From an uncultured Burkholderiales bacterium (lineage in GTDB: Bacteria > Pseudomonadota > Gammaproteobacteria > Burkholderiales > Burkholderiaceae_E), in NCBI GenBank assembly GCA_903903975.1, contig CAIVAS010000232.1, forward strand, positions 1 to 55,498: a DNA stretch of 55,498 bases, in the 5' to 3' direction. Both the position numbers and the translations under genes were made by a program. How positions within the stretch are numbered: the first letter of the stretch is position 1; each line of letters starts with the position of its first letter. The notes beneath the pieces are model-generated. The model was not told where the DNA came from and made no database searches. It saw only the letters and a program-made list of their open reading frames with translations. Below, one piece after another: positions 39,137 through 43,282 of this stretch.

Positions 39137-39268
39137 GGCCCTGCATTGAGTCGGCATGAACAATCGGGGCATGGCCTCAGCAGGTTCAACCCCTTCGCTT
39201 TCGATTGCGTCGTTTTCGCCGATATCGTGTTCTGCCGATTCGGTTGAGCCAGCTCACCAGGCCCCGGC

Positions 39269-39856
39269 ATGAGGCCGGCCTCGGCCCAGCTGATCAGCCG
39301 CGAGGTCCTGCCCTTTTATGCAAGCCTGGCGGCACTGGCCGCCGGCACGCTGCTGATCGACGCCGTGCTCCATCTAGTAGATGCGGTCTGGATCGGCCGC
39401 TACCTCGGCATTGCCGGGACCCTCATCATCATCGGGTCCTTCGGCTATTCGCTGCGCAAGCGAAAGCTGATCACCCGCGGCAATCCGGTGATACTGCTGC
39501 GCACCCACGAACGCATGGCCTGGTTTGGCTCGCTGCTGGTGCTGGTTCATGCCGGCATTCACTTCAATGCCCTGCTCGGCTGGCTGGCGGTCAGCGCGAT
39601 GCTGATCAATGTCGCCAGTGGCCTGACCGGCAAGGTCCTGCTGCGCCGCGCACGAAACCGGCTCGATGCGGCGCGCGAGCGTCTGCGAGGCGAGGGCCTC
39701 TCGGACGAGGCGCTCGATGAGCGGCTCTACTGGGACAGCCTGACCGTCGATACAGTCAAGCAGTGGCGTGCTCTGCATCGTCCGATCACGCTTGCCTTCG
39801 GCGTGCTGGCGCTTGCGCACATCATCGGCATCAGCCTGTTCTGGGGCTGGCGATGA
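39269..39856 (+). CDS. Four-helix membrane protein, probable diheme b-type cytochrome
   Basis: A 195-residue protein with about four membrane helices (roughly residues 15-37, 46-63, 84-118, 172-194). Histidines His80 and His94 lie at one helix end and His170 and His184 at another, each pair separated by 14 residues, the spacing seen in bis-histidine diheme cytochrome b proteins. His35 and His98 are extra. A charged loop (residues 126-170) joins the last two helices. It is coupled by ATGA to an octaheme cytochrome c gene, so it probably passes quinol electrons to it. I do not recognise a named family. Confidence 0.65.
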   Translation: MRPASAQLISREVLPFYASLAALAAGTLLIDAVLHLVDAVWIGRYLGIAGTLIIIGSFGYSLRKRKLITRGNPVILLRTHERMAWFGSLLVLVHAGIHFNALLGWLAVSAMLINVASGLTGKVLLRRARNRLDAARERLRGEGLSDEALDERLYWDSLTVDTVKQWRALHRPITLAFGVLALAHIIGISLFWGWR

Positions 39857-40683
39857 AGGCCCTGTGGCTGAAGATCAAGGGATGGCTGGCGATCCTGCGC
39901 CGCCGCTGGTTTCTGGCATCAATCTCGGTGGCACTGATCGGTGTGGTGGCGCTGACCTTCATCAATCCGCGACTGATGATCAGCCCCGGCGCATTGATCC
40001 CGGCGCATGCCGACCTGTCGACCGACTGCTTTGCCTGTCATGCGCCCTTGCGTGGCGTGTCGGCGCAGCGCTGTGTGAGTTGCCATGCGGTGGCCGACAT
40101 CGGCCTGCGCACCAGCACCGGCAAAGCGATTGCAGCCAGCACAACGCTGCCGTTTCATCAGGCGCTGATCGCGCAGGACTGCATGGCCTGCCACAGCGAT
40201 CACAGCAGCCCGAGACTGGTCGGCGAGCGCGGCGTCAAACCCTTCTCGCATGAGCTGCTGCGCCCGGCGACTCGCGAGCGCTGCGAGAGCTGCCATGCGG
40301 CACCGGTCAATGACCTGCATCGCGGTCTGAACAGCGGCTGCGTGCAATGCCATCGCCCGCCGGCCTGGACGCCTGCCACCTTCGAGCATGAAAAATATTT
40401 TTTACTCGAGAGTGACCACAACGCACCGTGTGCGACCTGCCATCTCGGCAATGTGTTCAGCCGCTACACCTGCTATGGCTGCCATGAGCACACCGCCTCG
40501 AATATCGAGCGCAAGCACCGCAAGGAAGGCATCAACGACTTCCAGAACTGCGTGACGTGTCATCGCAGTGCGAACGAGGAGCCCGAGCACGGCCGCGCGG
40601 GCGGACGTGAGTCAGGCAAGCCGGGTGAGGCGCTGACCTCCGGTAAGGCCGGGAACCCAGGCGAGCGGCGCGAACGCGATTGA
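39853..40683 (+). CDS. Membrane-anchored octaheme c-type cytochrome
   Basis: A 276-residue protein with one N-terminal membrane anchor (residues 20-37) and eight CxxCH heme sites, the first Cys at 59, 74, 110, 144, 163, 193, 207 and 233. Many extra His residues (for example FHQ, DHS, FSHE, LHRG, EHEK, DHN, EHT) could be distal ligands. The layout suits a periplasmic multiheme electron carrier of the cytochrome c3/NapC-NrfB type. The last 40 residues are a Gly/Glu/Arg-rich disordered tail. No terminal reductase gene is adjacent. Confidence 0.85.
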   Translation: MKALWLKIKGWLAILRRRWFLASISVALIGVVALTFINPRLMISPGALIPAHADLSTDCFACHAPLRGVSAQRCVSCHAVADIGLRTSTGKAIAASTTLPFHQALIAQDCMACHSDHSSPRLVGERGVKPFSHELLRPATRERCESCHAAPVNDLHRGLNSGCVQCHRPPAWTPATFEHEKYFLLESDHNAPCATCHLGNVFSRYTCYGCHEHTASNIERKHRKEGINDFQNCVTCHRSANEEPEHGRAGGRESGKPGEALTSGKAGNPGERRERD

Positions 40684-42688: not shown

Positions 42689-42970
42689 GTGGCGATCAAG
42701 CGTTTCAAGTGCAAGGACACCAAGGCCCTCTTCGATGGGCGCAGGGTGCGTCGCTGGGTGAACATCGAGCGAGTCGCGCTTCGCAAACTTTCGCAACTCG
42801 ACTGGTCGGCGGTGCTTGATGATCTGAAAATCCCGCCCGGGAACCGACTCGAATCGCTTAAGAATGATCGACAGGGCCAGCACAGCATTCGCATCAACGA
42901 ACAATGGCGTCTGTGCTTCATCTGGACGGCAGACGGCGCCGCCGAAGTCGAGATTGTCGACTATCACTAA
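42689..42970 (+). CDS. higB: HigB-type toxin (RelE superfamily)
   Basis: A 93-residue protein with the HigB pattern: AIKRFKCKDTKALFDGRRVRRW, then RLESLKNDRQGQHSIRINEQWRLCFIWTADGAAEVEIVDYH. The conserved GQ/SIRIN..WR..F.W core and the C-terminal DYH are intact, so it is probably an active ribosome-dependent mRNA interferase. GTG start with no Shine-Dalgarno. Confidence 0.93.
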   Translation: MAIKRFKCKDTKALFDGRRVRRWVNIERVALRKLSQLDWSAVLDDLKIPPGNRLESLKNDRQGQHSIRINEQWRLCFIWTADGAAEVEIVDYH

Positions 42971-42982
42971 AGGAGTTCAGCC

Positions 42983-43282
42983 ATGCGTACCGTCCTGCCC
43001 ATCTCGCCCGGCGAGATGCTCGAAGAAGAATTCCTGAAGCCTCTGGGCCTCACGAAATATCGCCTTGCGAAGGACATCGGGGTTCCGCCGCAACGGATCG
43101 GTGACATCGTCGCCGGCAAGCGCGCGGTCACGGCGAATACAGACCTCAGGCTTTGCCGCTATTTCGGCCTCAGTGACGGTTGGTGGTTGCGCGGGCAGGC
43201 CAGCTACGACACGGCGCTGGCGCGCGAGGCCATGCAGGATGAGCTTGCAAGGATTCCTCGCTGCGCGCTTCTTCCCGCCTGA
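42983..43282 (+). CDS. higA: HigA-type HTH antitoxin
   Basis: A 99-residue XRE-type protein: ISPGEMLEEEFLKPLGLTKYRLAKDIGVPPQRIGDIVAGKRAVTANTDLRLCRYFGLSDGWWLRGQASYD. It neutralises HigB and represses the operon through the palindrome upstream. AAAGGAG lies 9 bases before its ATG, unlike higB, so the antitoxin should be translated more strongly. Confidence 0.95.
   Translation: MRTVLPISPGEMLEEEFLKPLGLTKYRLAKDIGVPPQRIGDIVAGKRAVTANTDLRLCRYFGLSDGWWLRGQASYDTALAREAMQDELARIPRCALLPA

Follow-up and report, generated by a model that had tools for sequence, protein, structure and literature searches.

A five-helix, probably diheme b-type membrane protein paired with an octaheme cytochrome c in Burkholderiales: a candidate inner-membrane electron outlet related to the PCC3 module

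By what route could electrons cross the inner membrane through a small membrane protein and a multiheme cytochrome encoded by two overlapping genes, and from which donor would they come? The question is raised by a locus in the 55,498-nucleotide stretch of DNA from an uncultured Burkholderiales bacterium that was analysed here (contig CAIVAS010000232.1, hereafter the window). The features of this locus are collected in Table 1. The histidines of the membrane protein lie at positions 35, 80, 94, 98, 170 and 184. His80 and His94 are spaced 14 residues apart (HX13H), as are His170 and His184. A preliminary description of this DNA had placed a 195-residue membrane protein here with these two histidine pairs on two helices, and a stop codon overlapping the start of an anchored cytochrome with eight CxxCH sites; both reading frames, the coordinates and the overlap are confirmed.

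The cytochrome has a single hydrophobic segment, near its N terminus, and its eight CxxCH motifs are found at residues 59, 74, 110, 144, 163, 193, 207 and 233. Four Pfam models of the cytochrome c3/c7 type exceed their curated cut-offs on this protein. All eight motifs, together with nine further histidines, are invariant in the aligned rows (12/12), and these nine residues could be enough to serve as distal ligands of eight bis-His hemes. DsrJ, OmcA/MtrC, DmsE, NrfB and QrcA were considered as names for the cytochrome and rejected, the model matches being far below the cut-offs. No second match to the cytochrome profile was found in the window's own genome. The G+C content of the gene pair is 64.5%, compared to 65.1% for the whole window.

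Table 1. Positions of the gene pair and its predicted elements in the window
Feature	Position	Strand	Basis or remark
Five-helix membrane protein, predicted diheme b-type, 195 aa	39269..39856, stop included	+	ORF; ligand His conserved
His80 codon, TM3	39506..39508	+	His in 47/47 close and 9/9 distant rows
His94 codon, TM3	39548..39550	+	His in 47/47 close and 9/9 distant rows
SGLTG motif (SGxxG), TM4	39617..39631	+	S117, G118 and G121 each in 47/47
His170 codon, TM5	39776..39778	+	His in 47/47 close and 9/9 distant rows
His184 codon, TM5	39818..39820	+	His in 47/47 close and 9/9 distant rows
Membrane-anchored octaheme c-type cytochrome, 276 aa	39853..40683	+	ATG at 39853 within ATGA overlapping the b stop; stop ends at 40683
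Heme-binding region	40027..40563	+	First CxxCH 40027-40041, last 40549-40563
Presumed Fnr-type box TTGA-N6-TCAA, TTGATGCACCTCAA	39123..39136	.	146 to 133 bases upstream of the start of the b gene
-10-like hexamer AACAAT	39159..39164	+	4/6 match to TATAAT; consensus match only

A scan of contigs with the b protein gave 12 loci, and a multiheme gene lies directly downstream in every one of them (12/12). Profile searches, each of which counts the own genome, found the b protein in 29 of 398 genomes of a phylum sample (24 strong and 5 weak matches), in 9 of 74 genomes of the family, and in 18 of 399 genomes of an order sample (11 strong matches, including a split b gene, besides 6 weak ones and 1 fragment). 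After duplicates, fragments and a split copy (G663) had been dropped, 47 distinct close loci including the window were retained, and nine distant rows were compared beside them. The protein family extends to a Myxococcota locus (L009). A multiheme cytochrome gene adjoins the b gene in all 47 close loci; the downstream cytochrome carries 8 CxxCH motifs in 37 of them, 10 in nine and 12 in one. Since the ligand histidines and the adjacent multiheme gene are kept in 47/47 loci, the association is not due to chance. Conservation of the histidines among homologs, which had been set beforehand as one of two refuting tests, is complete in the close and the distant rows alike (Table 1), and the adjacency of the two genes in other genomes, which was the other, is found in all the close loci. 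The earlier reading of the pair as an electron conduit, in which a diheme b protein of the bis-His type works with an octaheme cytochrome, is accordingly a sound one. W166, which precedes H170 by four residues on TM5, is present in 47/47 close rows; at the position four before H80 on TM3, the window has L76, and W occurs in 1 of 45 rows, duplicates included. H35 and H98 are histidine in all 47 close loci and in only 3 of the 9 distant rows each. A third heme held by H35 and H98 was considered and rejected as a general heme pair because each residue is replaced in 6 of the 9 distant rows, H35 by R, A or a gap and H98 by K, R or E.

The dN/dS ratio is 0.125–0.161 for the b gene, compared to four near relatives, and 0.219–0.257 for the c gene, compared to three of the four. 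On these sequence comparisons, the pair is judged to be real, conserved and under purifying selection, also in the clade that has no reductase gene (see below). It should be mentioned that in one locus (L113/L121, G663:C58:15022-15497) the b gene is spread over two frames, although the reductase and cytochrome genes next to it are intact; this reflects either a frameshift or an assembly error. The record of another locus, L003 (CAMCXH010000148.1), is titled as a Bordetella parapertussis MAG, and its b gene is almost a copy of those from Burkholderiales MAGs; the title is probably a mislabel.

The AlphaFold2 model of the b protein is weak (pLDDT 62.6, from a 13-row alignment). The five helices were taken from it, and the helices at residues 73–98 and 154–191 hold H80/H94 and H170/H184, respectively. 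The model of the cytochrome has a pLDDT of 44.7, and only its single N-terminal helix was used. Stretches rich in Arg and Lys follow TM2 and TM4 of the b protein. From the five helices and the positive-inside rule, we infer a cytoplasmic N terminus, a periplasmic C terminus and a parallel course of TM3 and TM5. Because TM3 and TM5 would run in the same direction, the expected heme-binding pairs are H80/H170, at the inner (cytoplasmic) face, and H94/H184, at the outer face near the periplasmic cytochrome. The pairing given in the preliminary description, 80/184 and 94/170, is therefore probably wrong. Foldseek and VIA-align matches of the b protein model (designed bundles, coiled coils, CorA and other chains) are unrelated, mostly helical-bundle proteins and were set aside as uninformative. 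No relative was found in the PDB by sequence profile.

No Pfam or NCBIfam model matches the window b protein at its cut-off. DUF4405 scores 11.2 bits on it (cut-off 26.7) and matches 5 of 13 rows of the b family, with a best E of 0.0039. Ferric_reduct (PF01794) reaches one of 13 rows at E 0.26, short of a model match. Prokaryotic cytochrome b561 (PF01292) reaches two of 13 rows, the window protein not among them, with a best E of 0.0012; its score on L009 is 16.4 bits against a cut-off of 30.1. In the MsrPQ system, the FRD-like b protein MsrQ supplies its periplasmic partner, a molybdenum enzyme, with electrons that come from quinol or a flavin reductase. The window b protein, compared by description only, is like MsrQ in that it would feed a periplasmic partner, and the partner differs. 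The CbcL-type proteins of Geobacter are located at the inner membrane and have a diheme b part and a multiheme c part fused in one chain; by the same kind of comparison, the window pair has both elements but on two separate chains. The ferric reductase domain (FRD) has been described with two HX13H helices for two b hemes, in a passage of PMC5566968. The b protein has two such helices, as does the ferric reductase/NADPH oxidase domain (FRD, PF01794), and, as in FRD systems, 26 of 45 relatives have an FAD/NAD(P) reductase available to serve the cytoplasmic side. In contrast to FRD systems, this flavoprotein is encoded by a separate gene and has an extra 2Fe-2S domain, and the b protein is partnered by an octaheme cytochrome; beside the window pair itself there is no FAD/NAD(P) reductase. 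A literature search of titles and abstracts, with partial coverage of subscription journals and with bioRxiv outside its range, found neither a description of a reductase/b/octaheme operon nor biochemistry for any member of the family.

The preliminary description recognised no named complex. A related module, that of PCC3, is already in print. In the passages of He et al. 2017 (PMC5566968) that treat it, an inner-membrane protein, annotated as hypothetical, goes with a periplasmic multiheme cytochrome; a two-heme, FRD-like, quinone-linked hypothesis is put forward for the inner-membrane proteins of PCC3 and PCC4, for which the motif SGxxG is also named. PCC3 is discussed for Fe(II) oxidation, and a passage of a 2025 paper still calls it functionally untested (PMC12442390). 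The window family was compared with five proteins (L042, L044, L115, L116 and L120) that are labelled PCC3-like here by sequence marks rather than by comparison with the sequences of He et al. The profile–profile match is 97.9% with an E of 3.2e-13 over residues 41–132, an alignment that does not extend to TM5. The pattern W-X3-H-X13-H on both helices and SGxxG are invariant in the five proteins. The cytochrome downstream has 24 CxxCH motifs in L042 (L071), where a 27-heme ORF follows, and 21 in L044 (L073); on these two PCC3-like cytochromes the A2 cytochrome profile scores 115 and 109 bits, respectively.

The window b protein is like PCC3 in its five helices, with HX13H on TM3 and TM5 and SGxxG on TM4, and in the tryptophan four residues before the first histidine of TM5. 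The adjacent multiheme cytochrome is a further likeness; ahead of its first CxxCH, an N-terminal stretch PG....(A/G)H is common to both. The window b protein has 195 residues, compared to about 300 for the PCC3 inner-membrane protein, and has no W before H80, whereas PCC3 carries W on both helices (WX3HX13H). The window cytochrome has 8 hemes against a PCC3 median of 21. Unlike PCC3, the window pair is adjoined by no outer-membrane porin or extracellular multiheme cytochrome, neither being found among the nine scanned neighbours, while an Fnr-type box is present at the window and a flavoprotein is encoded beside 26 of 45 relatives. A search of the own genome for MtrB-type porins gave no match, the same search being silent in every control genome as well. 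Judged by profile similarity, the b protein shares common descent with the PCC3-like inner-membrane proteins, as a distant cousin of what has been proposed as a system for metal respiration. Because of the differing length and heme number, the missing TM3 tryptophan and the lack of an adjacent porin or extracellular cytochrome, the window pair was not filed as PCC3; it is, by these marks, a compact relative of the PCC3 inner-membrane module and not without precedent. For the destination of the electrons, earlier given as periplasmic or extracellular acceptors, the periplasm is the safer claim. An extracellular destination is unsupported at the window since neither an adjacent porin or extracellular cytochrome nor a second match to the cytochrome profile in the genome was found.

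The preliminary description had also stated that no oxidase, reductase or dehydrogenase gene is adjacent. This is correct at the window and does not hold for the family. In 26 of the 45 loci with enough upstream sequence to be testable, a gene of about 400 aa for an FAD/NAD(P)/2Fe-2S reductase lies directly upstream of the b gene, with best profile scores per locus of 271–721 bits. Two loci reach a contig end or a run of N, and a frameshift interrupts one. Pfam scans of four of the 26 found FAD-binding, NAD-binding and Fer2 (2Fe-2S) domains in all four, some of the FAD matches being below cut-off; a hydrophobic N-terminal stretch, taken as an anchor, is present in nine aligned reductases. The closest NCBIfam model is that of flavohemoprotein, below its cut-off. 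The remaining 19 of the 45 loci, the window among them, have no adjacent reductase. A genome-wide search of 35 genomes gave a reductase match at E 1e-20 or better in 28. There is no match at this threshold in G010, G093, G081, G173, G073, G105 and G133 (completeness 78% for G133 and 65% for G173), all of which have the pair. Since the pair is found without the reductase at both the locus and the genome level, the reductase is not obligatory. The best match in the window's genome has 123 bits, and those of the four nearest genus mates have 112–128 bits. Three genus mates that have no b gene give 99–152 bits, so matches of this size are general homologs rather than orthologs.

At least nine changes, six of which are forced by well-supported branches, are needed to explain where the reductase occurs on the b tree. 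A simple loss of the reductase inside the window's genus was rejected: the b proteins of the reductase-bearing genus mates G444, G448 and G449 come from another part of the tree, so transfer is more likely than loss within the genus. Remnants are found at other loci. A 115-codon ORF at L064:8373-8717 (minus strand), directly before an intact b/c pair, joins the anchor to a broken C-terminal end of the reductase, with the FAD/NAD part gone. Weak anchor-like matches lie before the b gene at L060:7318-7500 and L066:7034-7216 (minus strand; E 0.0055 and 0.03), two loci that are near relatives; an anchor-less reductase homolog is encoded elsewhere in their genomes (G041 C41 and G101 C24).

In a second group (L043, L045 and L046), the b protein is accompanied by a longer protein that bears the reductase and by a cytochrome with 6–7 CxxCH motifs. 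The profile link between this group and the window family is 97.2%, with an E of 2.9e-11 over residues 41–188, and a reductase is present in L117 and L118 too. The combination of reductase, b protein and multiheme c is thus shared by two distinct branches of the superfamily. This arrangement in the relatives suggests, by its gene content, a split chain of the ferric-reductase kind. Quinol had been suggested as the donor. Given that 26 of 45 loci have the reductase next to the pair, quinol becomes one of two candidates, and for the family donation by a flavoprotein is no less likely. A separate operon type was observed at L072:3568-7135, L074:5755-9121 (reversed) and L075:6768-10247, in which a b protein and a cytochrome of 6–7 CxxCH motifs go with a longer reductase whose N terminus is extended by a His/Met-rich stretch. 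In L072, the next gene, on the other strand, encodes a large membrane protein that by eye resembles a metal-efflux RND pump; a metal-linked role of this operon type is possible.

Upstream of the b gene, the sequence TTGA-N6-TCAA occurs as its sole exact copy in the window, where the chance mean is 0.40 and at least one copy is present in 35 of 100 shuffles. The hexamer AACAAT starts 36 bases from the start of the box. We take the box to be of the Fnr type and the spacing of the hexamer to be that of class II. Among relatives, upstream regions were usable in 43 of the 47 loci, and 11 of the 43 contain the box, whereas 300 shuffles average 0.31 and never exceed 3; the density elsewhere in the same loci gives an expectation of 0.17 (first 39 regions). 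These 11 boxes represent about seven independent sites, some being shared (L002/L003/L005, L054/L055 and window/L004). All of them fall within the window's own order, in 11 of 17 regions there and 0 of 26 others, with order membership assigned by kinship or record title. A distance of exactly 36 bases separates the start of the box from that of the best -10-like hexamer (4/6) in the window, L004, L107, L052 and L056, and one of 35 bases in L053; in L002, L003, L005, L054 and L055 the matches are 3/6 or lower. The own genome encodes an Fnr (236.6 bits, curated cut-off 228) with a Cys-x2-Cys-x5-Cys cluster and further Cys, and the cut-off is exceeded in 1 of 14 control genomes. Control of the pair by Fnr is predicted for the window's order.

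We propose, with moderate confidence, that the two proteins form the membrane-spanning core of an electron outlet in the inner membrane, leading from the cytoplasmic side to the periplasm at low oxygen. The two b hemes would be stacked across the membrane, with H80/H170 inside and H94/H184 outside, and would hand electrons to the periplasmic eight-heme chain. In the reductase-bearing relatives, electrons of NAD(P)H would enter via the reductase, in the manner of a split ferric reductase. The window's lineage yielded no reductase ortholog, and there the electrons may come from quinol or from another cytoplasmic flavoprotein. Expression would rise as oxygen falls, and the acceptor may be a periplasmic carrier or a diffusible oxidant. 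A more specific reading of the family, to which we give slightly less than an even chance, is that of a split transmembrane NAD(P)H dehydrogenase bypassing the quinone pool. It would be composed of an anchored NAD(P)H/FAD/2Fe-2S protein, two b hemes and a periplasmic wire of eight to twelve hemes, switched by Fnr at low oxygen in the window's order; the window would hold a stripped form that lacks the flavoprotein and uses another donor.

The pair may instead be a quinol:cytochrome conduit, in which the b protein oxidises quinol, the octaheme cytochrome feeds periplasmic acceptors and a flavoprotein is an optional extra input. This is a credible possibility, though on balance a doubtful one: the reductase stands beside the pair in 26 of 45 relatives and also in the distant second group (b protein and about seven hemes), whereas the purifying selection on the pair in a clade without the reductase agrees with quinol as donor, and H35/H98, conserved in 47/47 close rows and expected close to the periplasmic face, could form part of a quinone site. 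The published model of the related PCC3/PCC4 proteins, in the passages of PMC5566968 devoted to it, is likewise quinone-linked. A reversed, inward chain, from a periplasmic donor through the c and b hemes to quinone or NAD(P)+, has been proposed for PCC3 in iron oxidisers, and the relatedness to PCC3, linked in print to Fe(II) oxidation as a proposal, speaks for it; we consider it unlikely here, given a predicted Fnr control that fits a low-oxygen role and no porin or extracellular cytochrome adjoining the window pair. That the window lineage keeps only a decaying, functionless leftover of a three-gene system is very improbable. In its favour, the window clade has no reductase gene, and the remnants at other loci show the operon to be capable of decay, but the dN/dS values of 0.125–0.257, the intact ligands, the preserved overlapping start and the pair's own Fnr-type box all stand against decay; a dead pair was rejected on the dN/dS values and the intact ligands.

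Should the split-dehydrogenase reading of the family be true, the PCC3 inner-membrane proteins, modelled as quinone-linked, would join a superfamily with flavin-fed branches. Electron crossing of the inner membrane is an open step for PCC3-type conduits. In the compact relative, which is small, has the reductase in 26 of 45 testable loci and, within the window's order, carries a predicted oxygen switch, the question of the donor becomes directly testable in a two- or three-gene system. If a flavoprotein feeds the hemes, the cell would have a route for NAD(P)H discharge outside the quinone pool.

The nine scanned neighbours in the window are ordinary genes, encoding TctC, an amidase, TauD, NIPSNAP, a histidine phosphatase, a fatty-acid hydroxylase, HigB, an HTH protein and an AMP-binding enzyme. 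Two of these form a HigB-like toxin and HTH antitoxin pair at 42689-43282 (PF05015 and HTH_3). In relatives, genes picked by eye near the operon encode VIT1 and Usp (L012), a cation ATPase (L008), a PRC-barrel protein (L007) and Hsp20 (L057). No one-CxxCH ORF is found between the TauD gene and the b gene in the window. A gene with one CxxCH motif is divergent from the b gene at L002:5234-5830, L003:3001-3522 and L005:5012-5533 (minus strand), with a PF13442 match in L005; its product is a possible periplasmic partner.
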